A stretch of 46,084 nucleotides of DNA from Planctomycetota bacterium (GTDB lineage Bacteria; Planctomycetota; Planctomycetia; Pirellulales; UBA1268): assembly GCA_003671185.1 (NCBI GenBank), contig QWPN01000100.1:1-46084 (forward strand). The letters are read 5' to 3'. Both the position numbers and the translations under genes were made by a program. Shown piece after piece: positions 23,286 through 43,097 of the stretch. A model generated the notes under the pieces. That model had not been told where the DNA came from. It searched no databases and worked only from the letters and a program-made list of their open reading frames with translations. The first letter of the stretch is position 1. Each line of letters opens with the position of its first letter.

Positions 23286-24293
23286 TCACAACGGCACGCG
23301 GCGGCCCTCGGCCTGGCTCGTGGCCGCGGCCTGCACGATGCGCATCGCGCACAGCGTGTCGTCGAGGCCGCTCATGTGCCGCACCAGGCTGGTGACCATG
23401 CGGTGGAACTGCACGAGCATCTGCTCGCCCACCGGCCGCTCGCTCTCCAGGGATTCCTGGTGCCGGCCCGCCGTGTCGAACCACACCAGCGCCGCCGGCA
23501 GATCGACGAAGGCGATGCCATTCTCGCAAACCACCTGCAGTGCCGGCGGCGGACGAAACCCGACGGCCTCCTCCCAGCGGCCCGGCATGTAGTAGCCGCA
23601 GCTGATCTGCGCCAGCGGGCCGTCGCCGGGCCGGCCGTTCCCGGCAAAGTCCAGGCTCATCATCTGGTAATCGTCGCTGTCGCCACCGGGAGTCTCGGCA
23701 TGCCGCACGGCCACCACACTGGTGGGTTCGATACCGGCCACGTAGCGGCACCAGTCGACCAGCTCCATGAGGTCGCGGGCCTCGGTGCGGCGGTCGCGGC
23801 TCGAGGCGGCACTGCCGGACGTGGAGAGGGGCACCCGGCGGTGGCAAAACAGCATCCGCGGCTGCCCCAGCTTCGTGGCGATCAGTTCCTTGAGCCGCAC
23901 GGTCGCCGGGGCGTGGCGGCGTGGCAGCTCGGCCATGAAGGCGATGCCCGCCTCCTCCACCCGCCGGCGCAGGACGCGGGCCTCTTCCGCTTCCAGGGGC
24001 AGGGAGATCGCCGAGTAGACGGCCTTGCCGTGGTCGCAGGCGGCCAGGATCGGCGTGGCGCCGAACCACTGGTCCGCCAGGTACAGCAGGGCGTCGATGT
24101 CGTCCCGTGAGGCCAGCGCGCGGAAACCGTCGACCGCGGCGGCGTTCAGTTCGCCAGCCGCCCGCTGGGCCCGATGCGCCACCTGCTCGCAGATGCCGCG
24201 CACCTCGAAGCGGTCGGCCAGGGTGCGCAGCGCCGGCAGATGCCGCGACTCCCACTGCTCGCCAAGTCCGACGATTCCCACGCGCAGCTTCAT
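23286..24293 (-). CDS. Gfo/Idh/MocA-family protein, altered EKP motif
   Basis: A 335-residue protein with an N-terminal Rossmann fold (LRVGIVGLGEQWESRHLPAL) and the C-terminal sheet of Gfo/Idh/MocA oxidoreductases. The motif normally read EKP (catalytic Lys, residue about 97) is here ISLPL in AVYSAISLPLEAEEARVL, lacking the Lys. It may bind NAD(P) without the usual chemistry, or use another base; substrate unknown. The start overlaps the purD stop by four bases (ATGA), so it is translated with purD although no purine role is evident. Confidence 0.85.
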   Translation of the reverse strand: MKLRVGIVGLGEQWESRHLPALRTLADRFEVRGICEQVAHRAQRAAGELNAAAVDGFRALASRDDIDALLYLADQWFGATPILAACDHGKAVYSAISLPLEAEEARVLRRRVEEAGIAFMAELPRRHAPATVRLKELIATKLGQPRMLFCHRRVPLSTSGSAASSRDRRTEARDLMELVDWCRYVAGIEPTSVVAVRHAETPGGDSDDYQMMSLDFAGNGRPGDGPLAQISCGYYMPGRWEEAVGFRPPPALQVVCENGIAFVDLPAALVWFDTAGRHQESLESERPVGEQMLVQFHRMVTSLVRHMSGLDDTLCAMRIVQAAATSQAEGRRVPL

Positions 24294-25630
24294 GGCGGCG
24301 CCTCCGCGGCCAGCGTGCTGGCATCGTCGGCGGCCGGCGTCTCGCGTTCGTGCCGCAGCCCCTTGTCGGAGATGTCCTTGCGGCACCATGCGCCGGGCCA
24401 GCGGATCTCCTTGACGGCCGTGTAGGCCTGCAGTTTCGCCCGAGCCAGCGATGCTCCCGTCGCCGTCACGGCCAGCACGCGGCCGCCGTCCGTGACCACG
24501 CCGCCGTCGCCGGCGCGGGTCGCAGCGTGGAACACCTGCGCATCGGTGACCCGCGCCGCGGCGTCGAGCCCGCGGATGGGGCGGCCCTTCTCCACGCTGC
24601 CCGGGTAGCCTGCGCTGGCCATCACCACGGTGACGCTGGCGCCGTTCCGCCAGATCGGCGGTTGCACCTCGTCGAGCCGGCGGTCCGCCGTGGCATCGAG
24701 CAGGTCGAGCAGGCTGGAGTCGAGCCGCGCCAGCAGCGCCTCGCACTCCGGATCGCCGAATCGGGCGTTGAACTCCAGCACCTTGGGCCCCTGGGCGGTG
24801 AGCATCAATCCCGCGTACAGCACGCCCTGGAAGGGTACCTTGGCCCGGCGCATGGCGTGCACGGTGGGCACCAGGATCCGGGCCTCGATATCGGCCAGCA
24901 TGTCGGCGTCGACGAACGGAGCGGGGCAGTAGGCCCCCATGCCCCCGGTGTTCGGTCCCTGGTCGCCATCGTGGGCGGCCTTGTGATCCTGTAGCGGCGG
25001 CAGGGTGACGATCGTGCGACCGTCGGTGATCGCCATCACGCTCACCTCGACGCCGTCGAGCCTCTCCTCCACGAGGATGCCGCCTGACGCGGCCGCCAAC
25101 TGCGGGTCGGCGCTGATCGCGGCCAGGGCTTCGAGCGCCGCGGCGCGGTCGGCGCACACGAACACGCCCTTGCCCGCCGCCAGGCCGTCGGCCTTGATCA
25201 CGACCGGCATGTCCTCGCGGGCCTCGAGGTACTCGCGGGCCCTCGCCATGGCGCGGAACTCGCGGAACATGGCGGTGGGGACGTCGCCGCGGTGCAGGAT
25301 CTGCTTGCAGAACAGTTTGCTGCCCTCGATCTGCGCGGCGCGGGCCGTGGGGCCGAAGATCCGCAGGCCCGCGTTCTGGAAGGCGTCGACGATGCCGGCC
25401 ACGAGCGGCGCCTCGGGGCCCACGACGGTGAGATCGACTTCGCGCCTGCGGGCAAACTCGACGAGCGCGGGGACGTCGGTGGCGGCCAGCGGCACGTTCT
25501 CCGCGATCGCGGCCGTACCGGCGTTGCCGGGCGCGACGAGCACCTCCGCGCCGTCCTTCGCCAACTTCCAGGCGATCGCATGTTCGCGTCCGCCGCCGCC
25601 AACGACGAGCACGCGGCGGGGTGTGGTCAC
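24290..25630 (-). CDS. purD: phosphoribosylamine-glycine ligase
   Basis: GAR synthetase, joining phosphoribosylamine and glycine with ATP in purine synthesis. From GTG 25630 it has 446 residues (usual 420-440); GGAG seven bases upstream decides the start. Domains: N domain with VLVVGGGGREHAIAWKLA and VVGPEAPLVAGIVDAF, and the ATP-grasp region with SKLFCKQIL, MPVVIKADGLAAGKGV, QDHKAAHDGDQGPNTGGMGA and EFNARFGDPE. The C domain contains MASAGYPGSVEKG and a final Gly-rich VLAVTATG. An unusual tail of about 20 residues rich in Ala/Glu ends the protein. Divergent from the respiratory supercluster across a 367-bp gap. Confidence 0.96.
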   Translation of the reverse strand: MTTPRRVLVVGGGGREHAIAWKLAKDGAEVLVAPGNAGTAAIAENVPLAATDVPALVEFARRREVDLTVVGPEAPLVAGIVDAFQNAGLRIFGPTARAAQIEGSKLFCKQILHRGDVPTAMFREFRAMARAREYLEAREDMPVVIKADGLAAGKGVFVCADRAAALEALAAISADPQLAAASGGILVEERLDGVEVSVMAITDGRTIVTLPPLQDHKAAHDGDQGPNTGGMGAYCPAPFVDADMLADIEARILVPTVHAMRRAKVPFQGVLYAGLMLTAQGPKVLEFNARFGDPECEALLARLDSSLLDLLDATADRRLDEVQPPIWRNGASVTVVMASAGYPGSVEKGRPIRGLDAAARVTDAQVFHAATRAGDGGVVTDGGRVLAVTATGASLARAKLQAYTAVKEIRWPGAWCRKDISDKGLRHERETPAADDASTLAAEAPP

Positions 25631-25837: not shown

Positions 25838-25865
25838 TTGACAGTACCGGGGCGCCCGATACAGT
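25838..25865 (+). promoter_or_regulatory. promoter of the respiratory supercluster
   Basis: TTGACA (25838-25843), a 16-bp spacer, TACAGT (25860-25865); perfect -35, four-of-six -10. Predicted start of transcription near 25872. It is the only strong promoter I see ahead of the Rieske gene in the 367-bp gap 25631-25997; the rest of that gap (25631-25837) has no gene or clear signal. Confidence 0.75.
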
Positions 25866-25873
25866 TACAGAGA

Positions 25874-25895
25874 GTTCGTGAAAAAAATCACGAAC
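25874..25895. promoter_or_regulatory. CRP/FNR-type palindromic operator
   Basis: A perfect 8-bp dyad, GTTCGTGA (25874-25881) and TCACGAAC (25888-25895), with A6 between. The core CGTGA-N6-TCACG matches the TGTGA-N6-TCACA architecture of CRP-family sites. It lies at about +2 to +24 of the promoter at 25838, a position expected to repress by blocking polymerase. An alternative is an RNA stem-loop in the leader. Confidence 0.6.
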
Positions 25896-25997: not shown

Positions 25998-27089
25998 ATG
26001 GCAGAAAAGAAGAAGATGTCGGTCGCCGAAATTCTGGCTGCCGCCAGGGCAGCGGACGGCAAGGGAGATGCGGCGGCTTCGCCTGCAGCGCCCGCAGCAG
26101 AGTCGCCTGCCGCAGCAACAGCGCAGGCCAACGCGGAGCAACCGCCCGCTGAGACGAAGGCCAAGCCGGTGCAGGCTGCCAAACCCGCGCCAGGAGCGGG
26201 CGGCCGTCCCAGCGTGGCCGACATCCTGGCCCTGGCGCGTGCCAAGAACGCCGGCGCTCCGGCTCCTGAAGCCGCCGCCAAGCCGGTGGCGGAGAAGCCC
26301 GCTGCCGCGCCGAAACCGGCTGCCGCGAAGGCGCCTGCCAAGCCAGCGCTGACCCAGGGGGCGCCGAAAACCGGCGTGCAGCGTGACACGGCCAGCATCC
26401 TCGCGGCCGCCCGCGGCGGGGCCAAGCCGGGGCCGGTGAGCAAGGCTGACGCTCCGCAGCGTCCTGCCGCGAAGCCCAGAGAGCCTGCCAAGCCGGCCGC
26501 TGAAAAGGCCGCGGCCCGTCCCGTTCCCCCCATGCCCGTGCGGCCGGTGACGTCCGCGGCCAAGAAGGTGGAGGATGCGGAGGACCGTCGCGGCTTCCTG
26601 CAGATCGCGATGGGATCCTTCATGGCGGTGGGCTTCACGGCCCTGTCGGTCACCGGAGGGCTGTTTTCGCTGGGGCTGGCCCGCTTCTTGTTTCCCAACG
26701 TGCTCGCCGAGCCGCCCAGCAAGTTCAAGGTCGGATTCAAGGACGGGTTTCCGACCGGCAAGGTGGAGACAAAGTTCGTCGCCCAGTACGGCGTGTGGGT
26801 CGTGAACTACGAATTTCAAGGCCAGCAGCAGATCTACGCCCTGAAGACGGTGTGCACGCACCTCGGCTGCACGCCGAGCTGGCTGGAGGCGGAGCAGAAG
26901 TTCAAGTGTCCCTGTCACGGCAGCGGCTTCTACAAGGACGGCGTCAACTTCGAGGGCCCCGCACCGCGGCCGCTGGAGCGGTACGCGATCCGCACTGCGG
27001 ACGACGGCCAGCTCGAGATCGACAAGAGCAGGTCGTTTCAGGAAGAACTCGGCCAGTGGGCCGATCCCGACTCGTTCGTCACCGTCTGA
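25998..27089 (+). CDS. Rieske iron-sulfur protein of the bc-type complex, with long N-terminal extension
   Basis: The Rieske subunit carries electrons from menaquinol to the cytochrome. From ATG 25998 (GAGG six bases upstream) it has 363 residues. Residues 1-190 are an Ala/Pro/Lys-rich extension with three related motifs: SVAEILAAARA (8-18), SVADILALARA (72-82) and DTASILAAARG (130-140). A twin-arginine-like signal-anchor RRGFLQIAMGSFMAVGF begins near 197. The Rieske domain has ligands C286, H288 (CTHLGC) and C304, H307 (CPCHGS), with disulfide cysteines C291 and C306. The extension stays in the cytoplasm if the TM is single-pass (inference). First gene of the supercluster. Confidence 0.93.
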   Translation: MAEKKKMSVAEILAAARAADGKGDAAASPAAPAAESPAAATAQANAEQPPAETKAKPVQAAKPAPGAGGRPSVADILALARAKNAGAPAPEAAAKPVAEKPAAAPKPAAAKAPAKPALTQGAPKTGVQRDTASILAAARGGAKPGPVSKADAPQRPAAKPREPAKPAAEKAAARPVPPMPVRPVTSAAKKVEDAEDRRGFLQIAMGSFMAVGFTALSVTGGLFSLGLARFLFPNVLAEPPSKFKVGFKDGFPTGKVETKFVAQYGVWVVNYEFQGQQQIYALKTVCTHLGCTPSWLEAEQKFKCPCHGSGFYKDGVNFEGPAPRPLERYAIRTADDGQLEIDKSRSFQEELGQWADPDSFVTV

Positions 27090-27110: not shown

Positions 27111-27884
27111 ATGGCCATCGGCGAAACGATTCGCAACTCCCAGATTTGGAAGAGCATCTTCCGCCACCCGATGCCGCTCGATCGGCGCAATCGGATCGTG
27201 GTCATGCTCACGAATTTCTTCCTGCACCTGCACCCGGTGTCGATCAAAAAGCAGGGCATCGCCCTGTCGTTCACCTGGTGCATGGGCGGCGTGACGTTCT
27301 TCCTGTTCCTGGTGGAGACCGTCACGGGCGTGCTGCTGATGTTCTATTACCGGCCCACGCTCGAGTGGGCCTACAACGACATCCTGGCACTGCGCGACGT
27401 GACCAGCCTGGGGATCCTACGCGAGCTGCATCGCTGGGGTGCGCATGCCATGGTGATCACCACCTGGCTGCACATGTACCGCGTGTTCCTCACGGGCAGC
27501 TACAAGCCGCCGCGCGAGTTCAACTGGGTGATCGGGGTGATCCTGCTCCTGCTCACCCTGTTGCTGTCGTTCACGGGCTATCTGCTGCCCTGGGATCAGC
27601 TGGCCATCTGGGCGATCACGGTGGGCTCGAACATGGCCCGGGCCACGCCGTTCCTCGGGTACGAGGGGCCCGGCCAGCAACTGCTCACGGTGGGCGGCAT
27701 CGACATGATCACCGACGCCTCCGATGCCCGGTTCGGCCTGCTGGGGGCCCGTTTCGTGGGCGAGGAAACGCTCAACCGGTTCTACGTGCTGCACTGCATC
27801 GCGATCCCGCTGGCGGTCGCCCTGCTGCTGGCGATCCACTTCTGGCGAGTGCGAAAGGACGGCGGCATCAGCGGGCCGCTCTGA
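27111..27884 (+). CDS. cytochrome b, N-terminal half (b6-like)
   Basis: A 257-residue four-helix heme protein equivalent to cytochrome b6/QcrB. Helix 2 has [19 protein letters not shown] and helix 4 [20 protein letters not shown]. The His pairs hold hemes bL and bH, with the 15-residue spacing in helix 4 as in b6. The [13 protein letters not shown] Qo-region segment follows helix C. Cys57 in TWCMGGVTF aligns with the b6 Cys35 position (YCLGG) that covalently attaches heme c-i. This marks a b6f/menaquinol-type, not mitochondrial, lineage. AAGGAA lies just before the ATG. Works with the subunit IV gene 10 bp downstream. Confidence 0.96.
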
Positions 27885-27894
27885 CAAACCACCC

Positions 27895-29220
27895 ATGCAT
27901 TCAAACGGCTTCTTTCTCAAGGATGTCGCCGGCTTTCTGGGCGGCTACTACACGTTCATGGCCCTGATGAACGGGGTGGCCGCCCTGTTGCTCTGGCGGC
28001 GCAAGGGGCAGGTGGGCTGGGCTCTGACGTGGGTGGCCTTCGCCGCTGCCATGATGGTGCTGGCCAGCCTGGCCTTGTCGGGGTCGGCTGAGCTCGTGCC
28101 GGCCCTGCCGCAGTCCGCCCGCACGATCGTCAACAGCCTCTCGGGCCCAGTGCTGTACACGCTGGGCACGACGGCCCTGCTCACGATCCTGTTTGTGTTC
28201 CGCAGTTTCTTCGTCAAGCCGATGGTGGCCTGGACGATCCTCAACGCGATGCTGCTGCTGATGGGGCTGTCGATGGCCGACGAGAACTTCGCCGCCATCG
28301 TCATGAAGCCCGACAACGTCCCCATCGTGGGGCTCGTGTTCCTGCTGGCGTTCTTTACCTGGGTGGCCACCAAACAGGCCGTGGTCAATGACGACCGCAT
28401 CGCCCGCGGGCTGCCGCCGGTGGAGAAGGAGAACGATGAGAAGGTGCTGGTGTGGCCCGATCTCGTGTACACCGAACTGATCTGCATGGTGGCCGTGTCG
28501 GCGTTCCTGCTGCTGTGGGCCATCTGCCTGCCCGCGCCCCTGGAAGAACCCGCCTCCAGCGTGAAGACACCCAATCCGTCGAAGGCCCCGTGGTACTTCC
28601 TTGGGCTGCAGGAAATGCTCGTCTACTTCGATCCCTGGTATGCGGGCGTGGTGTTGCCCAGCCTGGTGATCTTCGGGCTCATGGCTATGCCGTACCTCGA
28701 CTTCAACAAGAAGGGCAACGGCTACTACTCGATCGCCGAACGCAAGTTCAGCTACCTGACGTGGCAGTTCGGCTTTCTCGAACTGTGGATCACGCTGATC
28801 ATCCTGGGGACGTTTCTGCGCGGCCCCAACTGGAACTTCTTCGGGCCCTTCGAGTTTTGGACGCCCTACAAGGTCGAGGTGCTCAACAACGTCGACCTGC
28901 CGCAGATGTTCTGGGTGGGTCTGCTCGATCGGCCACTGCCGCGTGCGCCGCAGGGCGCGAGCGGCCTGGTGCAGGCGGGCTACGTGCTCCTGCGCGAGGC
29001 GCCTGGCCTCCTGGTGATGGGCGTCTATCTGCTGGTTCTGCCGCCGCTGCTGGCCGTGACGATCTTCCGTGGCTTCTTCGCCAAGATGGGGTTCATCCGC
29101 TACATGGTGATGGCGAATCTGATGCTGCTGATGCTGTCGCTGCCGCTGAAGATGGTGCTGCGTTGGACGCTGAACCTAAAATACATCGTCAGCATCCCGG
29201 AATTTTCGCTCAATTTTTAG
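27895..29220 (+). CDS. cytochrome b subunit IV-like protein, N-terminally extended
   Basis: A 441-residue membrane protein. The C-terminal core resembles subunit IV/C-terminal cytochrome b: PDLVYTELICMVAVSAFLL, then PNPSKAPWYFLGLQEMLVYF (the PEWY-region counterpart here reads APWYFLG), and VLPSLVIFGLMAMPYLDFN. Instead of the usual 160-residue chain, about 150 residues with four hydrophobic helices precede it (from MHSNGFFLKDVAGFLGGYYT). Two further helices follow near the C terminus (GLLVMGVYLLVLPPLLAVTI, MVMANLMLLMLSLPLKM). The substitution of PEWY's PE by AP may alter the Qo-site glutamate role. Functional completion with the b6-like gene is expected. Confidence 0.9.
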   Translation: MHSNGFFLKDVAGFLGGYYTFMALMNGVAALLLWRRKGQVGWALTWVAFAAAMMVLASLALSGSAELVPALPQSARTIVNSLSGPVLYTLGTTALLTILFVFRSFFVKPMVAWTILNAMLLLMGLSMADENFAAIVMKPDNVPIVGLVFLLAFFTWVATKQAVVNDDRIARGLPPVEKENDEKVLVWPDLVYTELICMVAVSAFLLLWAICLPAPLEEPASSVKTPNPSKAPWYFLGLQEMLVYFDPWYAGVVLPSLVIFGLMAMPYLDFNKKGNGYYSIAERKFSYLTWQFGFLELWITLIILGTFLRGPNWNFFGPFEFWTPYKVEVLNNVDLPQMFWVGLLDRPLPRAPQGASGLVQAGYVLLREAPGLLVMGVYLLVLPPLLAVTIFRGFFAKMGFIRYMVMANLMLLMLSLPLKMVLRWTLNLKYIVSIPEFSLNF

Positions 29221-29263: not shown

Positions 29264-32200
29264 ATGCCTGCAAATGAACAGACCTGGCGCAATCTGAAGG
29301 TGCTGCACGTCGTGTTCGCGGTGGCAGCCGTGCTGCTGCTCGTGGCTACGGTGTTCATGCTCGCCGCCGACCACGACCGGCCCTGGAAGAAGTACGCCCG
29401 TGGTTTCCGGAATCTGGAAACCTGGTCGGCAACCGCCCGCGTCCAGGAGCAGGACTCGAGGTCCTACGAGGCCCGCCGCCAGGAACTCGACGACGCCCTC
29501 GCGGCGGCCCGACGGGCCGACCTTGATTCCGGCTTGGCGCAGGAGTTCGTGGCCCGCGTCCGGACCGTGGCCGAGGATGCTCAGGCCGCCGACCGGGTCC
29601 AGCTCGACATCGACGAACTCAAGACGCAGGCGGATTCCGCTCAGCGGCTCACGCTGCGGGGCGACCTGCTGGGGCGGATGTTCGACATCGTGGCCCGCGC
29701 CAAGTATCGCGAGGACATGAAGGCGGGCGCCCTCAAACTCCACAAGGCGAAGCTCGACAAGAACCGCGCCGATTACGAGTTGGCGGTGGCCGAAGAGGCC
29801 CCTCAGACCCGGCGGGATGAGTTGCTGGCCCTGGCGGACGCGACGCGGGCGGAGGTGGCGGCCGCCACGCTCGACTTCCAGGCAGCCAACACGCACCGCA
29901 AGTCGCTCGAGGAATCACTGCGCCGGATCACCGCCCCCGAGGATGAGGCCGCCAAGGGCGTGGCCGACCACCGCACGAAACTCGCCCAATTGCAAAAAAC
30001 GTTGGCACAGCGACAGCCGAGCGCCGGCAAGGCGGTGCTGGAGTTGCCGGTGCTCGACGCGTTCAACGGCCCTCTGCGGGTTGACCAGTTGTGGCTGCCG
30101 CAGCTCACGCTGAACAACAACTTTCGTGACGTGGCCCGGTTTGACCGCTGCACCACCTGCCACCGCGGCATGGACAAGTCGCTGCCCGGCGCTCCGTACG
30201 ACCCGGCCTATCCTCACGCGGATCCCGTGACCCTGGCGTTGGCCACGCCCGACAAGGCTCCCGGCGCCGTCGTCGGCGACGGCAACGATCAGCTGGAACA
30301 GGCCTACGGGCTGCGGCTGGCGGCGCAGGGGCTGTTCCACGCCGAGGATCCCACGGTCGCCGTCGTGGTTCCGGAGTCTGCGGCGGCCAAGGCCGGGCTG
30401 AAGATGGGCGATGTGATCGAACAGATCGGCGACAGCCGGACCGCGGCCCGTCCCGTCGCCCTGGCGGGGCTCCTGGACACGCCGGTGTGGGGCAAGCCGC
30501 TGACGCTCACGGTGCGACGCGGTGTGCCACAGCCGTACTCGACCCATCCGCGGCTCGACCTGTTCGTGAGCGACTCCAGTCCGCATCCGATGAAGAATTT
30601 CGGTTGCACCATCTGCCACCAGGGGCAGGGGAGCGCCACCAGCTTCAAGTGGGCGTCGCACTCTCCGAACACGCCGAAGCAGTCGCACGACTGGCACGAC
30701 GAGCATGGGTGGTTCAACAACCACCACTGGATCCTGCCCATGCTGCCGCAGCGGTTCGAGGAGTCGAGCTGCCTGAAGTGCCATCACCAGGTGGTCGACC
30801 TGGAGCCGAGCGAGAAGTATCCCGAGCCTCCCGCCCCCAAACTCGTCGAGGGCTACCACCTGATCCGCCAGTACGGCTGCTACGGCTGCCACGAGATCAA
30901 CGGCTGGTCGGGCCCCGAATCACGAATCGGCCCCGACATGCGACTGGCGCCCAACTACCACGAGGTGGCCGAATCGCTGACGTCCGATCCGGGGCTGTCC
31001 GAGCTGGGCGACGCCGTGGTCCGCTGGGTGGACGATGTGCGGTCGAGCCCGGACGGCCGCGATTCCCGCCTGCGGCTCCGCGAGGCGATCGAGCGCGACG
31101 CGGCCGCCGGCACCGAGGCGAAGTTGTCGCACCGTTCGCACGACATGGCGGCGCTGCTGAAGGACCCCGAGACACCCGGAGCCTTGCCCAAGGTCGGGCC
31201 TTCGTTGCGGCACGTGGCCAGCAAGGTGGGCTATGACTGGCTTTATTCCTGGCTGCGAAATCCGCAGGACTTCCGGCCCTCCACGAAGATGCCGAGGTTC
31301 TTCGGACTCTGGGAGCACCTCGAGGGCAAGGGTCTCGAGGAGTCGATGCGCTACGAGCCTCTCGAGATCCGCTCGATGATCCGCTACCTCACGGCCTCGA
31401 GCGCGGCGTTCGAGCACGTGAAGCCATACGCGGGCATCACCGCCAAGCCCGACGTGGATCGCGGTCGCAAGGTCGTCCAGCTTCGCGGCTGCCTCGCCTG
31501 CCACCAGCACGCGGACTTTCCCCAAGCCACGAGCACCCATGGCCCGAATCTGTCGCGGATCGGCGCCAAGGCGGCCTCCCATCCGGAGGGCCGGCAGTGG
31601 CTCTACAGCTGGCTGCGGGAACCGGCCCGCTACCACCCCAAGACGCTGATGCCCAACGTGCTGCTGGAGCCGGTCGCGCTCGCGGACGGCACGGTCAGCG
31701 ACCCCGCGGCGGACGCCACCGAATACCTGATGCGATCGACGGAGGACTGGAAGCCCGAGGCCGTGCCCGCCGAGGGGACGCTCTCCGCCGGCGAGCGCAA
31801 GGCGCTCGAGGAGTTGGCCCTGATGTATCTCAAGGAGAGGTTCACCGCGGTGCGGGCCGCGCAGGTGCTCGAGGATGGCCGGTCGGTGGGCGACAAGGGT
31901 GACGAAACCATGCTCGCCGGTCTTGACGGGCCGGATCGGGAGCGACTGCTGCTCGAGTACGTGGGCAAGAAGACGATCGCCAAGTTGGCCTGCTATTCCT
32001 GCCACGACATTCCCGGCTTCGAGGATGCCAAGCCGGCCGGCGCCGCATTGGCCGACTGGGGCCGCAAGGATCCGTCGCGCATCGCTTTCGAGCAGGTGTC
32101 GCACTTCGTCACGCACCAGTTGGCGGGGAAGCACGGGCACGGCGGTCACGGGCACGGTCACGACGGCCACGCCGCGCAGCCGGGTGCTGACACGGCATCC

Positions 32201-33778
32201 GGGGACGCGCAGCTGAACCCGGATCTGGCGTATGTCAGCGCCGAGGGTGATGCCCACGTCGACGCGGAGTCGCTTGACCCTGACACCGGCTATTTCCTGC
32301 AGAAGCTGTTGGGGCACGAGCGTGAGGGCTTCCTCTGGCAGAAGCTCCGCGCCCCTCGCAGCTACGACTACAAGAAGGCGGAGAACAAGACGTACAACGA
32401 GCGCTATCGGATGCCGCAGTTCCCCTTCGATCAGAAGCAGCGGGAAGCGGTCATGACGTTCGTGCTGGGGCTCGTTGCCGAGCCTCCGGCGCCGAAATAC
32501 GTGCACAAGCCGGCCCCGCGGGAGCAGGCCCGGCTGGACGGGCTGGTGGTGGCCGAACAGTACAACTGCGGCGGTTGTCACGCGCTCCATATGGACCGTT
32601 GGGACATCCGCTACACGCCGGGCTCGATGGGTGAGCCGCCGGCGATCGCCGATTATCCCTTCCTGTCGCCGCACTTCACGCCGGAGCAGGTGGCGGCGTC
32701 GCTGGCCACCGACTGGCAGGGCCGTCGCAAGGCAACGATCGTGGGGATGCCGAAACTCGACACCGCGGGCCGGGACGTGCTGGTCGACCAGGACGGCCAG
32801 GAGTACGACCCGGAGGATGCCGAGGCGGTGCCGCATCGGTCGGTGATGCTCTGGCATGACGCCCTTGTCGACGGCGAGCCGCGGCCGGTGGGCGGCCAAA
32901 ACCTGCTCGTGCCCGAGGACGCCATCCGCGCCGGCAGGCACTATCCCGCCAAGGGGGGCGACCTGGCCAGGTTGCTCTTCCCTGTGGTGATCGCCGACGA
33001 AAAGCAGGTCAATCCGAACGTCAAGGATGACGATGCCTGGGGCTGGTTGCCGCCGCCTCTGGTGGGCGAGGGAGCCAAGGTGCAGTCCGCATGGCTGCAC
33101 AAGTTCCTGCTCAATCCACACACCATCCGTCCGCCGGCGGTGCTGCGGATGCCGAAGTTCAACTTCAGCTCCGGGCAGGCTGCCGATCTCGTTAATTACT
33201 TCGCGGCCGTGGACGGGGCGGACTACCCCTACGTCTACGATCCGCGGCTCGACGAGAGTTCGCTGGCCGGTGCCGAGGAGCAGCACCCCGGTCACCTGCG
33301 GGACGCCCTCAAGATCGTCACCAACAACAATTACTGCGTGAAGTGCCACCTGGTGGGCGACTACACGCCGCCGGGCAGCGTCAAGGCGCTGGCGCCACAG
33401 TTGGAGCGGGTGCACGAGCGACTCCGTCCCGGCTACGTCCATGATTGGATCGCCAACCCCAAGCGGTTCCTCCCCTACACGGGCATGCCGGTCAACATTC
33501 CGTTCGACAAGCCGATCGATCAGGCCATCTACAAGGGAACGAGCGAGCAGCAGGTCAGCGCGCTCACCGATCTGCTCATGCACTTCGACACGTTTGCGAA
33601 GAAGAGCCTGTCGCTGGAGGCGTTCCTCAGGCAGCAGCCCGCCACCCCGCGGCAGTCCCAGGCCGCACCGGTCGGTCCGCCGGCCGCGTCCCGGGGGGCG
33701 GGGCGGTCGCAACCGTCGGCGCAACTGGACGTTCCGAATGCGGACTCCTCGTCGCGGAAGAACGTCGCCCTAAACTGA
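29264..33778 (+). CDS. octaheme cytochrome c with embedded PDZ domain
   Basis: A 1,504-residue membrane-anchored protein in the place of cytochrome c1. One TM (about 12-34) is followed by a charged, coiled-coil region (about 50-250). Eight CxxCH heme motifs follow with first Cys at residues 296, 448, 503, 539, 743, 910, 1102 and 1358. Between hemes 1 and 2 is a PDZ-like domain (about 335-430; VPESAAAKAGLKMGDVIEQI). A His-rich stretch HGHGGHGHGHDGH lies near residue 965. Several cytochrome c-like lobes contain MPRF, MPNV and MPKF Met-bearing segments as candidate axial ligands. Periplasmic electron relay from Rieske/cytochrome b to a mobile carrier is inferred from position. The C-terminal tail is Pro/Ser-rich. 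No other heme motif was seen. Confidence 0.9.
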   Translation: MPANEQTWRNLKVLHVVFAVAAVLLLVATVFMLAADHDRPWKKYARGFRNLETWSATARVQEQDSRSYEARRQELDDALAAARRADLDSGLAQEFVARVRTVAEDAQAADRVQLDIDELKTQADSAQRLTLRGDLLGRMFDIVARAKYREDMKAGALKLHKAKLDKNRADYELAVAEEAPQTRRDELLALADATRAEVAAATLDFQAANTHRKSLEESLRRITAPEDEAAKGVADHRTKLAQLQKTLAQRQPSAGKAVLELPVLDAFNGPLRVDQLWLPQLTLNNNFRDVARFDRCTTCHRGMDKSLPGAPYDPAYPHADPVTLALATPDKAPGAVVGDGNDQLEQAYGLRLAAQGLFHAEDPTVAVVVPESAAAKAGLKMGDVIEQIGDSRTAARPVALAGLLDTPVWGKPLTLTVRRGVPQPYSTHPRLDLFVSDSSPHPMKNFGCTICHQGQGSATSFKWASHSPNTPKQSHDWHDEHGWFNNHHWILPMLPQRFEESSCLKCHHQVVDLEPSEKYPEPPAPKLVEGYHLIRQYGCYGCHEINGWSGPESRIGPDMRLAPNYHEVAESLTSDPGLSELGDAVVRWVDDVRSSPDGRDSRLRLREAIERDAAAGTEAKLSHRSHDMAALLKDPETPGALPKVGPSLRHVASKVGYDWLYSWLRNPQDFRPSTKMPRFFGLWEHLEGKGLEESMRYEPLEIRSMIRYLTASSAAFEHVKPYAGITAKPDVDRGRKVVQLRGCLACHQHADFPQATSTHGPNLSRIGAKAASHPEGRQWLYSWLREPARYHPKTLMPNVLLEPVALADGTVSDPAADATEYLMRSTEDWKPEAVPAEGTLSAGERKALEELALMYLKERFTAVRAAQVLEDGRSVGDKGDETMLAGLDGPDRERLLLEYVGKKTIAKLACYSCHDIPGFEDAKPAGAALADWGRKDPSRIAFEQVSHFVTHQLAGKHGHGGHGHGHDGHAAQPGADTASGDAQLNPDLAYVSAEGDAHVDAESLDPDTGYFLQKLLGHEREGFLWQKLRAPRSYDYKKAENKTYNERYRMPQFPFDQKQREAVMTFVLGLVAEPPAPKYVHKPAPREQARLDGLVVAEQYNCGGCHALHMDRWDIRYTPGSMGEPPAIADYPFLSPHFTPEQVAASLATDWQGRRKATIVGMPKLDTAGRDVLVDQDGQEYDPEDAEAVPHRSVMLWHDALVDGEPRPVGGQNLLVPEDAIRAGRHYPAKGGDLARLLFPVVIADEKQVNPNVKDDDAWGWLPPPLVGEGAKVQSAWLHKFLLNPHTIRPPAVLRMPKFNFSSGQAADLVNYFAAVDGADYPYVYDPRLDESSLAGAEEQHPGHLRDALKIVTNNNYCVKCHLVGDYTPPGSVKALAPQLERVHERLRPGYVHDWIANPKRFLPYTGMPVNIPFDKPIDQAIYKGTSEQQVSALTDLLMHFDTFAKKSLSLEAFLRQQPATPRQSQAAPVGPPAASRGAGRSQPSAQLDVPNADSSSRKNVALN

Positions 33779-34618: not shown

Positions 34619-35499
34619 TTGCCATGCGATTTACGTCGTGCGTTTTCCTCGTCCTGCTGGCGTCGTGCTGCGGTGGCTGTGGCCAGGGTCGGCTCGCTTC
34701 GCCCCGGCCCGATGACGAGGCGGCCAAGACGATCCGTGCCGCGATCGGAGGCGCCTCGGCGGCTGCTGACGTCGCGGCGGAGAGCGGTGCCGCGGGCACG
34801 GGTTGGGCCACCCTCAAGGGGCGGTTCGTGTTCGCCGGCGATCCCGGCCAGCCCAAGGCGCTGGTCGTCGACAAGGACACGGAGGTGTGCGGCAAGTCGT
34901 CGAAGCTCTACGACAGGTCGCTGCGGGTCGATTCGTCGTCCAAGGGGCTGGCCGGCGTGGTGGTGTTCGTCCGCAAGTCCAGCCGTGTGAAGTCCGCTGT
35001 GCCCGAGACGCCGCTCGTCTTCGACCAGAAGAACTGCGAGTTCCTGTCGCCCGTGTTCGCCGCCCGCGTGGGGCAGCCGGTGGACGTCAAAAACAGCGAT
35101 CCGGTCGGCCACAACACCAACGTCGCCGGCACCAGTTTCAACCAGTTGATTCCGTCCGGCGGCAGCACGATTTTCAAGCCCGCCGGTGAGACCGGCATGC
35201 CGGTGATGGTGACCTGCAACATCCATCCCTGGATGAAGGCCTACGCCGTGTTCCGCAAGGACGGTTACGTGGCCGTATCCGCCGGCGACGGCTCGTTCCA
35301 GATCGCCGACCTGCCGGCCGGCGAGATGCTGGAGTTCCAGGTCTGGCACGAGCGGTCCGCCGGGCCCAATGGCGCACTCGGTCTGGACAAGGCTGACCTG
35401 AAGTGGACCCCCAAGGGCCGCTTCCAGGTCAAACTGCAGGAAGACGAAGTCAAGGATCTCGGCACGCTGGAAGTACCGGCGGCGGCCATCGGCACGTGA
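34615..35499 (+). CDS. cupredoxin-like lipoprotein, paralog of the previous
   Basis: A 294-residue paralog (shared EVCGK, NSDxVGHN, VTCNIHPWMKA and DGSF segments). Copper ligands are H166 and C201, H204, M207. The N terminus MRFTSCVFLVLLASCC has a lipobox, so it should be membrane-tethered, unlike its soluble-looking neighbour. The start ATG 34615 overlaps the previous stop (ATGA); Met at 34624 is an alternative. It ends one base into the next frame's possible ATG at 35499. The pairing of one soluble and one lipidated copy may provide a relay or two copper-loading states; unknown. Confidence 0.84.
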   Translation: MIAMRFTSCVFLVLLASCCGGCGQGRLASPRPDDEAAKTIRAAIGGASAAADVAAESGAAGTGWATLKGRFVFAGDPGQPKALVVDKDTEVCGKSSKLYDRSLRVDSSSKGLAGVVVFVRKSSRVKSAVPETPLVFDQKNCEFLSPVFAARVGQPVDVKNSDPVGHNTNVAGTSFNQLIPSGGSTIFKPAGETGMPVMVTCNIHPWMKAYAVFRKDGYVAVSAGDGSFQIADLPAGEMLEFQVWHERSAGPNGALGLDKADLKWTPKGRFQVKLQEDEVKDLGTLEVPAAAIGT

Positions 35500-35534
35500 T
35501 GCAGGCGACGCCCATGCACAGGCAAGACAGCCCC

Positions 35535-36713
35535 ATGAAAGTTTCGACGAACCAGGCCGGCATCCTCCTGGCCCTGGTGGTGGCGGTGTGTGCGGGCTGC
35601 GGCACCACGCCGCCCGCCTCGTTCCGGGCAAACCTCGTGGAGGCCACCAAGCAGCGGCTCACGCCGGATCAGGAGCGGCAGGTGGCCACCATCCTGCTGG
35701 CGATGTTCGGCACGCCCGACGATCCGGTGGCCCTGCCGGAGACGGGCCTCGACGAGGCCAAATTGAAACTCTGTGCCGGTCCCGTGCGCAGCGACATCGT
35801 GGGCCGCAAGAACGGCCTGTATCGCGAGCACTGCGCTCACTGCCACGGCATCTCGGGCGACGGCATGGGGCCGACCGCGGCCTTCCTCAATCCCTATCCC
35901 CGCGACTACCGTCCGGGGGTGTTCAAGTTCAAGAGCACGGAACGGGCGGACAAGCCGACGCATGGCGATCTGGTGCGCATCCTGCACAACGGCATTCCCG
36001 GCACGTCGATGCCCTCCTTCGCCCTGTTGAGCGCGGTGCAGGTGGAGGCGCTTGTCGAGTATGTGAAATACCTGAGCATCCGCGGTGAGACGGAATTGGC
36101 GCTGGTACGGCAGTACTTCGAACTCGACGACGACGCCCAGGGCAAGTTGCCCGAGACCCGCGAATTTCTCGTCGACGAGGTGCTCACTCCCATCGCCGAG
36201 CGCTGGAATGGAGCCGCCGACGCCCGGATCGCGGTCCCGGAGATGCCCGCGGACATCGACATGATGGCCTCCATCGCCAAGGGTCGGGAACTCTTCTATG
36301 GCGACAAGGCGAATTGCGTGAAGTGCCACGGCGTGACCGCACTCGGCGACGGCCAGGCCAACGACTACGACGACTGGAACAAGGCGATCGTGGAATGGCG
36401 CAAGGAGGTCGGCGGCGACAAGGACTCGGATTGGGTGTCCAAGGCGAATCGCGTGCTGGCGGGCGACGCGCTCAGGCCACGGACCATCCCCCCCCGCAAC
36501 TTGAGGCACGGAATCTACCGCGGTGGCCGCCGGCCGCTCGATCTCTATTACCGCATTCATGCCGGCATCAACGGGGCACCGATGCCGGCGGCCAAGGGCA
36601 CGGTGGACCCACAGGACATCTGGCACATCGTGAATTACATCCGTTCGTTGCCGTACGAGTTCGACGGTGAATTGGGCGTGGATCGGCCCATGGTGGCGAA
36701 GGACAGGTTCTAG
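35535..36713 (+). CDS. diheme cytochrome c lipoprotein
   Basis: A 392-residue periplasmic lipoprotein with lipobox VCAGC after a hydrophobic GILLALVVAV. Two heme c sites are C100AHCH and C261VKCH, each in a cytochrome c fold ending in Met-containing segments (GTSMPSFALL; GAPMPAAKG). It likely carries electrons from the octaheme protein to CuA. ATG 35535 gives a normal signal peptide; an overlapping ATG at 35499 would add 12 residues and couple it to the cupredoxin. The tail ends just before coxB. Confidence 0.9.
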   Translation: MKVSTNQAGILLALVVAVCAGCGTTPPASFRANLVEATKQRLTPDQERQVATILLAMFGTPDDPVALPETGLDEAKLKLCAGPVRSDIVGRKNGLYREHCAHCHGISGDGMGPTAAFLNPYPRDYRPGVFKFKSTERADKPTHGDLVRILHNGIPGTSMPSFALLSAVQVEALVEYVKYLSIRGETELALVRQYFELDDDAQGKLPETREFLVDEVLTPIAERWNGAADARIAVPEMPADIDMMASIAKGRELFYGDKANCVKCHGVTALGDGQANDYDDWNKAIVEWRKEVGGDKDSDWVSKANRVLAGDALRPRTIPPRNLRHGIYRGGRRPLDLYYRIHAGINGAPMPAAKGTVDPQDIWHIVNYIRSLPYEFDGELGVDRPMVAKDRF

Positions 36714-36774
36714 GTTCAGGGGCGCGGCGCCGGGCGACCGGTGCCGCCGACACACGAGCAGGGAGTCTTTCGAC

Positions 36775-37575
36775 GTGGGCAAGCGACTGGCCGGAATGTT
36801 CTGGGCCCTGGTGTTCCTCGCCGTGCCGGTACTGGGCGTGGCCACGTTCGCCGTGGCGCCGTCGATCAACGTCTGGCTGCCCAAGGACGTCTCCGAGCAC
36901 GGCCGGCAGATCGACTCCCTGTTCTATTTCATTCTCGTGCTCACCGGCGTGGTGTTCGTGGCCACGGAGGTGCTGCTGTTCTGGTTCATCTGGAAGTACG
37001 ACGCGGTGAAGCAGCAGGGGCCGGCGACCTACATCCAAGGCAGCCACACGTTGGAAGTTGTGTGGACGATCATCCCCGCGGCCACGCTCTTGTTCCTGGC
37101 CATCTACCAGATGAACGCCTGGGCCGACGTCAAGATGCGCCGGCCGGCCATGGCGCCCACCGTGGAGGTCGTGGCCCGGCAGTTCGAGTGGCGGCTGCGG
37201 TATCCGGGCCGCGACGGCACGCTGGGAACCGCCGATGACCTGTTCCTCGTCAACGACCTGCACCTGCCCATCGACGAGGATGTGCTCATCCAACTCAAGA
37301 GCATGGACGTGCTGCACAGCTTCTTCCTGCCTCACGTGCGCATCAAGCAGGATGCCGTGCCGGGCATGAAGATCCCCGTCTGGTTCAAGGCCCGCGAGGA
37401 GGGCGCCTTCGACATCGTCTGCGCCGAACTATGCGGCTGGGGCCACTACAAGATGAAGGGTCGCGTGACCTACGAGTCGCGGGCCAAGTTCGACGCCTGG
37501 CTGGAGCGGAAGTACGCCGAGCAGGAGGCGACCCAGCCGCAATCCGAGGCCGCCGACGTGGCCCTCGTTCGCTGA
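36775..37575 (+). CDS. coxB: cytochrome c oxidase subunit II
   Basis: A 266-residue CuA subunit from GTG 36775 (GGGAG nine bases upstream). Two TM helices (VFLAVPVLGVATFAVAPS; FYFILVLTGVVFVATEVLLF) precede a cupredoxin domain. The domain holds the binuclear CuA site C216AELC220GWGH224YKM227, with QFEWRLRYPG and SMDVLHSFFLPHVRIKQDAVPG strands. It lacks the C-terminal heme c domain of caa3-type enzymes, so electrons must come from a separate cytochrome or cupredoxin. First of the oxidase genes; coxA follows at 43 bp. Confidence 0.97.
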   Translation: MGKRLAGMFWALVFLAVPVLGVATFAVAPSINVWLPKDVSEHGRQIDSLFYFILVLTGVVFVATEVLLFWFIWKYDAVKQQGPATYIQGSHTLEVVWTIIPAATLLFLAIYQMNAWADVKMRRPAMAPTVEVVARQFEWRLRYPGRDGTLGTADDLFLVNDLHLPIDEDVLIQLKSMDVLHSFFLPHVRIKQDAVPGMKIPVWFKAREEGAFDIVCAELCGWGHYKMKGRVTYESRAKFDAWLERKYAEQEATQPQSEAADVALVR

Positions 37576-37618: not shown

Positions 37619-39448
37619 ATGACCCCGCCCACCACAACCGCCTCGCCCGCCGTCGATCACGGTCACGTCACGGTGCCGGCGCACGGCCACGCCCCCCACG
37701 GCGGCCTGTCGCACTTCCTCTCCACCTACGTGTTCTCCAAGGATCACAAGGTGATCGGACTGCAGTTCCTGTTCTCCACGCTGCTCTGGTTCCTGATCGG
37801 CGGCCTGCTGGCCCTGGCCGTGCGCTGGCAGGTGGCCTGGCCGTGGTCGCCCGTGCCGGTGCTGGGCAAGCTGTTCGCCCAGGAGGGCGGTCAGATGGCG
37901 CCGGAGTTCTACACGATGCTGTTCACGATGCATGCCACCGTGATGATCTTCCTGGTGATCATCCCCATCCTCGCCGGGGCCTTCGGCAACTTCTTGATCC
38001 CGCTCATGATCGGGGCCGACGACATGGCGTTCCCCACGCTCAACATGCTGTCGTACTGGTTCATGTGGCCGGCGTTCATCGCCTTCGGGGCCAGTTTCTT
38101 CGTCGAGGGAGGGGCGGCCGCGGGTGGCTGGACGAGTTATCCGCCGCTGTCCACCAACGTGGCCTCCTCGCCCGGCAGTGGCTGGGGGCAGACGCTGTGG
38201 CTGCTGGGGCTGACGTTCGTGGGCGTCTCCTCGATGCTGGGCAGCGTCAACTACATGACCACGATCATCCTCATGCGCGCCCCGGGCATGACCATGTTCC
38301 GGCTGCCGATGACGATCTGGGCCATGTTCATCACCGCCGTACTGCAGGCCTTCGCGCTCCCGGTGCTCACGGCGGCCGGCTTCATGCAGCTGGCCGATCG
38401 CGTGTTCAACACCGGTTTCTTCTCGCCGGAGGGGCTCGTCGTCAACAACCTCACCTCGGGCCCCGGTGGCGGCCAGCCGCTGCTGTGGCAGCACCTGTTC
38501 TGGTTCTACAGCCACCCGGCTGTCTACATCATGATCCTGCCGGCGATGGGCATGGTCAGTGACATCCTCACCTGCTTCGCCCGCAAGCCGCTGTTCGGGT
38601 ACCGACCCATGGTGTACTCGATCGCCGGCATCGCCGGGCTGGGCTTCATCGTCTGGGGCCACCACATGTTCATGTCGGGCATGAACCCCGCGCTGGGCAT
38701 CACCTTCATGGTGTCCACGATGATGATCGCGCTCCCCAGCGCCGTGAAGACGTTCAACTGGTTGGGCACGCTGTGGGGCGGACGAATCCAGTTCACCACG
38801 TCCATGCTGTTCGCGATGTCGTTCGTGTCGATGTTCATCATCGGCGGACTGTCGGGAATCTTCATGGCAGCCACACCCGTCGACATCTTCATTCACGACA
38901 CCTACTTCATCGTGGCCCACTTCCACTACGTGCTCTTCGCCGGGACGGCGATGGGGGTGTGGGCGGCGATCTACTTCTGGTTTCCCAAGATGTTCGGCCG
39001 CACGATGAACGAGTTCTGGGGGAAGGTTCACTTCTTCCTCACCTTCATTTTCCTCAACGGCACGTTCTTCACGATGCACATCCTGGGGGCCGTGGGTTTC
39101 CCGCGCCGGCTGGCCGACGCCTACCACTACGAGACGTTCCACCACCTGCAGCCCATGAACGCATTCATGACCTGGTGCGCCATCGGCATGGTGGCCACGC
39201 AGATCATCTTCGCCATCAATTTCGTGTGGAGCATGTTCCGCGGGCCGGTCGCGGGACGAAATCCCTGGAACGCCAACGGCCTCGAGTGGACGGCTCCCAG
39301 CCCGCCGGGTCACGGAAACTTCGACTACCAGCCGATCGTGTATCGCGGACCCTACGAATACTCGGTGCCCGGCGCGGACAAGGATCACCTCATGCAGACC
39401 GATCCGCCGAACGCTGCGGCAGCTGCGGCAGCGGCGGCGGCACACTGA
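37619..39448 (+). CDS. coxA: cytochrome c oxidase subunit I, A2-type heme-copper oxidase
   Basis: A 609-residue catalytic subunit (12 TM core). CuB ligands H299 and H348/H349 are in WFYSHPAVYIMIL and WGHHMF, with crosslinking Y303. The helix VI segment is YSHPxVY, without the Glu of A1 oxidases, which is the A2-subfamily signature; proton uptake uses the Tyr-Ser pair. The heme a3/a ligands are in VAHFHYVLFAGTAMG. D-channel IGADDMAFPTLN and K-channel SAVKTFNWLGT residues are present. The N terminus is His-rich (VDHGHVTVPAHGHAPHGG) and the C terminus poly-Ala. Catalyses O2 reduction with proton pumping. Confidence 0.98.
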   Translation: MTPPTTTASPAVDHGHVTVPAHGHAPHGGLSHFLSTYVFSKDHKVIGLQFLFSTLLWFLIGGLLALAVRWQVAWPWSPVPVLGKLFAQEGGQMAPEFYTMLFTMHATVMIFLVIIPILAGAFGNFLIPLMIGADDMAFPTLNMLSYWFMWPAFIAFGASFFVEGGAAAGGWTSYPPLSTNVASSPGSGWGQTLWLLGLTFVGVSSMLGSVNYMTTIILMRAPGMTMFRLPMTIWAMFITAVLQAFALPVLTAAGFMQLADRVFNTGFFSPEGLVVNNLTSGPGGGQPLLWQHLFWFYSHPAVYIMILPAMGMVSDILTCFARKPLFGYRPMVYSIAGIAGLGFIVWGHHMFMSGMNPALGITFMVSTMMIALPSAVKTFNWLGTLWGGRIQFTTSMLFAMSFVSMFIIGGLSGIFMAATPVDIFIHDTYFIVAHFHYVLFAGTAMGVWAAIYFWFPKMFGRTMNEFWGKVHFFLTFIFLNGTFFTMHILGAVGFPRRLADAYHYETFHHLQPMNAFMTWCAIGMVATQIIFAINFVWSMFRGPVAGRNPWNANGLEWTAPSPPGHGNFDYQPIVYRGPYEYSVPGADKDHLMQTDPPNAAAAAAAAAAH

Positions 39449-41584: not shown

Positions 41585-42562
41585 ATGAACGCTTCCGCGA
41601 TCACCATTCAGCACGGACACGACGGCCACGGTCACGGGGACGGCCATGGCGACGGCCACCACGGCCACGTCACGCTGCAATACCAACCCGGCCTGCCGCT
41701 CTCCCGCGGGAAGCTGATCATGTGGCTGTTCCTGTCCACGGAGATCATGTTCTTCGCGGCACTGCTGGGGAGCTACGTGGTGCTGCGCTTCGGGGCCCCG
41801 GTCTGGCCCAAGCCCCACCACGTGCACTTGAGCGAGCCGATCGGCGCCTTCAACACGTTCGTGCTGATCTGCTCCAGTGTCACGATCGTGCTCGCGTTGG
41901 AAGCCGCCCGCGTCAACAAGGCGGGGCTGGCGAAGGCCTGGATGGTGGCCACGTTCCTGCTTGGTGGCCTGTTTCTCGGGGTCAAGGGTTACGAGTACCA
42001 GGCCAAGTTCTCCCACGGCATCTACCCCTGGGCGCCGCGCGGGCTGATCTACGAGCGGCCCGACTTGTACTACGGTTCGGCGGTGCGGGCCCGGCTGGGC
42101 GAGGCGGCGATGATCGACCGGCTCAAGGAGCTCAACGAGAAGCCCGCCGATCAGTTGTCGGCAGACGAACTGGCGGCCCGCACCCGGCTGCAGCAGGTCC
42201 AGAAGATGGTGATGAGTTCCGACCAGCAGGCCTTCGACATGGCAGTCGTCGCCGACCAGGTGATGCCGCTGCCGGCCGAGGGCGCGCACGGCGGCCATGG
42301 CGGGGCGCACGGGCTCAATGATGTCTTCCCCTGGCTGCGACTGCCGATCGTCATCCCCGGCGGCAGCATGTGGGCCAGCACCTACTTCCTGCTCACCGGG
42401 TTTCACGCCATCCACGTGATCGTCGGCCTGATCGTGTTCGGGATCATGCTCACCTGGACGCTCAACGCCAAGCGCGCCGGGGCGATCGAGAACGCGGGCC
42501 TGTATTGGCACTTCGTCGACCTCGTGTGGATCTTCCTGTTCCCGCTCATGTACCTGTTCTGA
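41585..42562 (+). CDS. coxC: cytochrome c oxidase subunit III with large insertion
   Basis: A 325-residue membrane subunit (family about 200-210). It begins with a His/Gly/Asp-rich stretch ([19 protein letters not shown]) and then [41 protein letters not shown], and the terminal [16 protein letters not shown] and [19 protein letters not shown] helices. Roughly 110 residues (about 145-255) containing a charged helix and [10 protein letters not shown] are inserted between helices 3 and 4. The insertion should face the periplasm if topology is normal; function unknown. Confidence 0.94.
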
Positions 42563-42596
42563 ACGTCCCCAGGATCACGACCGAAAGGCTTCCGCC

Positions 42597-43097
42597 ATGA
42601 CCGACCACGGCACCCACTCCGACGCCGGCCACCACGGCCCGATCACCCGGCCCGGCCAGTCGGCCGACGAGACACTCGAGCACGCCGCCCACGGCCATGG
42701 TGACGACCACGGCCACGGCGGGATCGGCAAGTACCTGCTCGTGTTCCTGGCCCTCTGCGGGCTGACGACCATGTCGTTCTTCACCTACTCGCCCGCCTGG
42801 CCCTGGCGGGATCAGCCACAGGTGGGCTGGGCCTTCATGATGGCGGTGTCGTGCACGAAGGCGATGCTCGTGATTCTCTGCTTCATGCACGTGTGGTGGG
42901 AGGCGAATTGGAAGTACGTGCTCACGATTCCGGCCGCGATGATGGCGATCTTCCTGGCGATCATGCTCGTGCCCGACGTGGGCATGCGATTGCGGATGGT
43001 GTCGCAGGAACGGGCGCTGCACATGGCGCGGTCGTCGGACGTGAAATTGCTGGAGCGGGCCGCCGCGGAGCGGTCCGCGGAGGCACCGGCCCACTAG
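42597..43097 (+). CDS. coxD: cytochrome c oxidase subunit IV (prokaryotic)
   Basis: A 166-residue protein with a His-rich start (HGTHSDAGHHG, HAAHGHGDDHGHGG) and three hydrophobic helices: KYLLVFLALCGLTTMSFFTY, MMAVSCTKAMLVILCFMHV and VLTIPAAMMAIFLAIMLVP. FMHVWWEANWKYVL is typical of the small prokaryotic subunit IV family (CtaF/CoxD), which stabilises the enzyme. It follows coxC by 34 bp with CGAAAGG before the ATG. Confidence 0.9.
   Translation: MTDHGTHSDAGHHGPITRPGQSADETLEHAAHGHGDDHGHGGIGKYLLVFLALCGLTTMSFFTYSPAWPWRDQPQVGWAFMMAVSCTKAMLVILCFMHVWWEANWKYVLTIPAAMMAIFLAIMLVPDVGMRLRMVSQERALHMARSSDVKLLERAAAERSAEAPAH

Follow-up and report, generated by a model that had tools for sequence, protein, structure and literature searches.

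A probable Rex operator ahead of the respiratory cluster of a planctomycete, and its altered spelling within the order Pirellulales

The palindrome at positions 25874-25895 of the window (the whole stretch of DNA analysed, 46,084 nucleotides) is very probably, judging from sequence comparisons, the operator of Rex, a protein encoded once in the genome (contig C3), and would control the Rieske/cytochrome b/oxidase cluster that follows. Rex is a repressor which senses the NADH/NAD+ ratio. The window corresponds to a single contig of a draft assembly, of which 2.75 Mb (85% complete) have been recovered, and the close relatives of the source genome are Pirellulales, within the Planctomycetota. Coordinates are collected in Table 1.

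Table 1. Features of the operator region and of the respiratory cluster in the window
Feature	Position	Strand	Basis or remark
purD, divergent neighbour left of the operator	24290..25630	-	GARS domains
-35 box TTGACA	25838..25843	+	16-bp spacer kept in 28 orthologous sequences
-10 box TACAGT (TAnAnT in relatives)	25860..25865	+	transcription start predicted at ~25872
Rex-type operator GTTCGTGA-A6-TCACGAAC	25874..25895	.	sequence and relatives
Rieske iron-sulphur protein, long Ala/Pro-rich N-terminus; first gene after the operator	25998..27089	+	PF00355, E=7.9e-11
Cytochrome b, N-terminal part	27111..27884	+	PF00033
ORF with cytochrome b C-terminal (petD-like) domain	27724..29220	+	PF00032, E=2.1e-05; the actual start is probably at about 27885 or beyond
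1504-aa cytochrome c protein with PDZ domain	29264..33778	+	PF00034, PF17820
Cytochrome c protein	35403..36713	+	PF00034, PF13442
Cytochrome c oxidase subunit II	36667..37575	+	PF00116, PF02790
Cytochrome c oxidase subunit I	37619..39448	+	PF00115, E=4.5e-147
Cytochrome c oxidase subunits III and IV	41585..43097	+	PF00510, PF03626

The 22-mer GTTCGTGAAAAAAATCACGAAC carries perfect 8-bp arms around an A6 centre which is itself asymmetric. The perfect dyad reported in the preliminary description is more than a chance occurrence: sequences of the type GTTCGTGA-N6-TCACGAAC are expected 0.14 times per shuffled window even when up to 3 mismatches are tolerated, and the copy in the window has none. 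The dyad follows closely on TTGACA-N16-TACAGT, the only match of sigma-70 type that the intergenic region contains (shuffle mean 0.0), and the operator is predicted from the -10 box to span about +2 to +24. The earlier view that this placement favours repression holds, relative to a start which is predicted. In 28 distinct orthologous sequences the same -35 box is followed, at the 16-bp spacing, by a TAnAnT box and, 7-11 bp further on, by the palindrome; as this list was obtained by looking for the arrangement beside exact sites, it illustrates conservation, and does not measure it.

Conservation was assessed by locating, across 60 relatives, the Rieske and NuoB orthologues, fetching the upstream DNA, and scoring in each region the best site of two chosen spellings, TTCGTGA-N6-TCACGAA or TTGTGA-N6-TCACAA. 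Of 50 Pirellulales genomes, 49 have the operator upstream of the Rieske gene, in agreement with the expectation that a regulatory site would be kept there, and 50 of 51 have it upstream of nuoA. Rieske sites have no mismatch in 32 genomes, 1 in 14, 2 in 3 and 4 in one; sites of the nuoA operon, reached through NuoB, have none in 32, 1 in 18 and 4 in one. Shuffled upstream sequences never scored below 2 mismatches. The GTGA-N6-TCAC core is invariant in all 99 sites; the mean top-base frequency of 45 flanking bases is 40-55% in sets excluding the genus of the window. A second set of named loci, overlapping the first, has the site in 70 of 73 cases, the exceptions being three loci of the order (L309, L314, L319). 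Genomes of one genus are not independent, and the weight of these counts therefore rests on the other genera and families.

The textbook Rex operator is TTGTGA-N6-TCACAA. This canonical form is found in the other families of the order at the very same nuoA and Rieske positions, and the site in the window is its equivalent. Compared with the TTGTGAA-N4-TTCACAA-like dyad of Rex, the GTGA-N6-TCAC core is exact, and the outer base is C, not T, in both halves; the site sits in or just after the promoter (the start being predicted) of operons for redox and respiratory functions. In the family of the window, the base preceding GTGA is C in both halves at 28 of 33 Rieske and 19 of 35 nuoA sites, and most of the remaining sites are mixed (C/T). 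The genome G023 has TTCGTGA at the Rieske gene and TTTGTGA at nuoA, and G025 the reverse. Since a single genome may use one spelling at one target and the other elsewhere, the two are most likely recognized by one protein.

A single complete Rex is encoded in the source genome. It features the PF06971 winged helix (E=1.3e-15) and an NAD-binding domain with GxGxxG, scores above the cut-off of several NCBIfam Rex models, and matches T-Rex at 1e-52. The residues corresponding to the T. maritima DNA contacts Arg12, Ser33, Gln46, Arg48, Lys49, Gly58, Gly61 and Tyr64 are kept; two others are altered, Lys43 into Ser and Arg60 into Pro. PF06971 was detected in 49 of the 60 relatives, and fragments in 2 more. 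The finished genome G052 has neither Rex nor the operator at the Rieske gene or at nuoA, a single case of loss, in a genome whose Rieske match is distant (40% identity). No rex was detected in eight drafts which carry the site (G005, G007, G008, G017, G034, G036, G049 and G058), among which G008 and G049 are 97% and 95% complete. In several genomes rex lies within ~1 kb of a contig end; this is so in the source genome as well (L065, 1-750), where it adjoins a gene for a repetitive protein. Given such locations, assembly gaps plausibly account for the missing rex in some of these drafts. A scan of the Rex loci for the core revealed no operator upstream of rex.

The genes found 3' of the palindrome encode, in order, the Rieske protein, cytochrome b, cytochromes c, COX2, COX1, a UbiA-type enzyme, COX3, COX4 and SCO1, and are plausibly co-transcribed; purD is not thought to be a target. 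The 1504-aa cytochrome c/PDZ protein is located between the cytochrome b and the oxidase genes. The N-terminus of the Rieske protein (window 25998-26560) is rich in Ala, Pro and Lys, and its translation shows a short motif repeated three times, as SVAEILAAARA, SVADILALARA and DTASILAAARG.

TTCGTGA-N6-TCACGAA occurs exactly twice in the 2.75 Mb recovered, both times before respiratory operons, the second copy lying 47 bp ahead of nuoA, which belongs to a nuoA-B-C-D operon. A copy with one mismatch lies 63 bp upstream of nuoH, which brings to three the respiratory operons marked in the source genome; hits with two mismatches were too numerous for individual interpretation. Elsewhere in the order, a canonical site lies ahead of nqrA, a gene of the Na+-translocating NADH:quinone reductase, in four genomes (G042, G050, G038, G046), and another lies in G051 ahead of a gene whose product is of the ATP-synthase gene 1 type. 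As in the Rex regulon of Streptomyces, the putative targets are the NADH dehydrogenases, or NADH-oxidising entry points, plus the chain behind them. Canonical Rex-type sites were also noticed near small proteins with two CBS domains, confirmed by Pfam at two loci (L146, L186) and recognized by reading at two (L176, L181), which makes these proteins a possible further target of Rex. Palindromes of the TTCGTGAAGCGGTTCACGAA type, found in many genomes of the genus, reside inside a conserved coding sequence and were set aside; exact hits were obtained in G039, G042 and G049. An identical perfect palindrome, TTGTGAGCTAGCTCACAA, is present at the ends of two contigs of G049 (C297 and C301), and is possibly the end of a mobile element.

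Could the dyad be read by a regulator belonging neither to the Rex nor to the CRP/FNR families? The lack of a detected rex in some site-bearing drafts, the two altered contacts in the protein and the outward extension of the nuoA sites to GAC...GTC speak for such a factor. Yet, the order-wide form of the site is the Rex consensus, its targets are Rex targets, and Rex is itself widespread among the relatives; we regard an unrecognised regulator as quite unlikely.

The preliminary description had assigned the palindrome to a CRP/FNR-like sensor of oxygen, redox, NO or nucleotide. The notion of a redox sensor probably stands, the sensor most likely being Rex; the CRP/FNR family does not, in view of the absence of PF13545, the occurrence of one full-length Rex, and the canonical Rex operators at orthologous positions. 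TGTGA-N6-TCACA is a CRP core too, and recognition by a CRP-, FNR- or HcpR-like protein might have been favoured by the true PF13545 proteins present in other families of the order. The core of the site fits the CRP form, which is common to Rex; the FNR form TTGAT-N4-ATCAA is absent. The suggested search for CRP/FNR paralogs found none with the CRP-type HTH (PF13545, HTH_Crp_2) in the recovered genome, which is 85% complete, and the assignment was rejected on this ground; the results across the family agree. Among the 36 relatives in the family of the window, where the site is most conserved, only one partial PF13545 match was obtained (27.9 bits, in G033), and in six other genomes of the order (G037, G043, G045, G053, G055, G056) the site is present without any PF13545 match over the cut-off. 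The cNMP-domain proteins of the source genome lack this HTH: by reading, they are an MscS-like channel, fusions to glucose-6-phosphate dehydrogenase, to glutaminase and to a ferredoxin-type protein, and two small proteins. The dehydrogenase and the glutaminase (contigs C29 and C75) each carry the cNMP-binding domain at the C-terminus. Binding by a CRP/FNR protein is thus very unlikely, and the case shows that dyads resembling CRP sites call for comparison with Rex operators before they are assigned to a regulator. That the palindrome works in RNA is scarcely credible: the predicted transcript would start with an 8-bp stem and an A6 loop, but folding of the leader reaches only z = -1.8 against shuffles, the 99 sites have an unchanging core, no compensatory pair change, and 23 of 297 cells mispaired in RNA at the three outer positions, and the same dyad is found at nuoA, nuoH and nqrA, so that the hairpin was rejected.

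In the Rex model, at low NADH a Rex dimer would bind the palindrome just 3' of the -10 box, cover the transcription start, and keep RNA polymerase from transcribing the Rieske/cytochrome b/cytochrome oxidase cluster; copies of this operator also precede nuoA-D and nuoH, the operons for complex I. With NADH building up under insufficient respiration, the repressor would take it up and leave the DNA, and the chain would be induced. Complexes I, III and IV would thus be made in coordination when NADH accumulates. The model names the sensor most likely setting the amount of respiratory chain in Pirellulales, an abundant aquatic group of planctomycetes with few genetic tools, and operators and targets are supplied for a direct test.

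The T. maritima structure offers a possible clue to the altered spelling: there the thymine immediately preceding GTGA is contacted by Arg60 of the wing (PMC8836258). The Pirellulales Rex proteins that were read have Pro at this place, and the matching base of the half-site varies between T and C. As families with the T form also have Pro, this residue could explain a relaxed choice, not a preference for C. The case is a natural instance of operator drift beside an altered protein contact. A more extended proposal is that in the family of the window Rex and its operators have both drifted from the usual form, giving a switch of the whole chain (complex I, bc/oxidase cluster, Na+-NQR and ATP synthase) whose operators are spelled differently. 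This is a tentative reading, which we would sooner doubt than accept; if it is true, the Rex system would gain a new variant. The regulator and the class of site are already known. To judge from the literature searched, in which no paper on Rex in Planctomycetes or Pirellulales was found, the novelty appears to lie in the regulon of the Pirellulales and in the change from T to C in its operators; papers beyond that search may exist.

The best term of comparison is Streptomyces avermitilis, whose Rex is a repressor of nuo, atp and cyd, binds in gel shift hppA, whose site TCGTGAATCAATTCACGA has TCGTGA halves, and protects from -3 to +25 at cydA1 (PMC5355995). The GTGA-N6-TCAC dyad and the targeting of complex I and ATP synthase operons are shared by the two systems. 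As at cydA1, the site lies over or just after the transcription start (here a predicted one), its position being nearly the same as the footprint, and the hppA site indicates that at least one bound Streptomyces site has a TCGTGA half. In contrast to Streptomyces, the putative targets include here a Rieske/cytochrome b/aa3-type oxidase cluster and, in relatives, Na+-NQR; C mostly precedes GTGA in both halves in the family of the window, and rex has no visible autoregulatory site. CRP, FNR and HcpR operators have a similar GTGA-N6-TCAC core, but the source genome is without a matching regulator, and targets and order-wide form fit Rex. Compared with the T. maritima and T-Rex structures (PDB 7wb3/5zz5, 3ikt; PMC8836258), the protein of the source genome departs from T. 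maritima Rex at the Lys43 and Arg60 positions, and shares homology over the whole protein, the Arg-Lys base-reading pair, the Gly-x-Gly-Tyr of the wing and the NAD loop.
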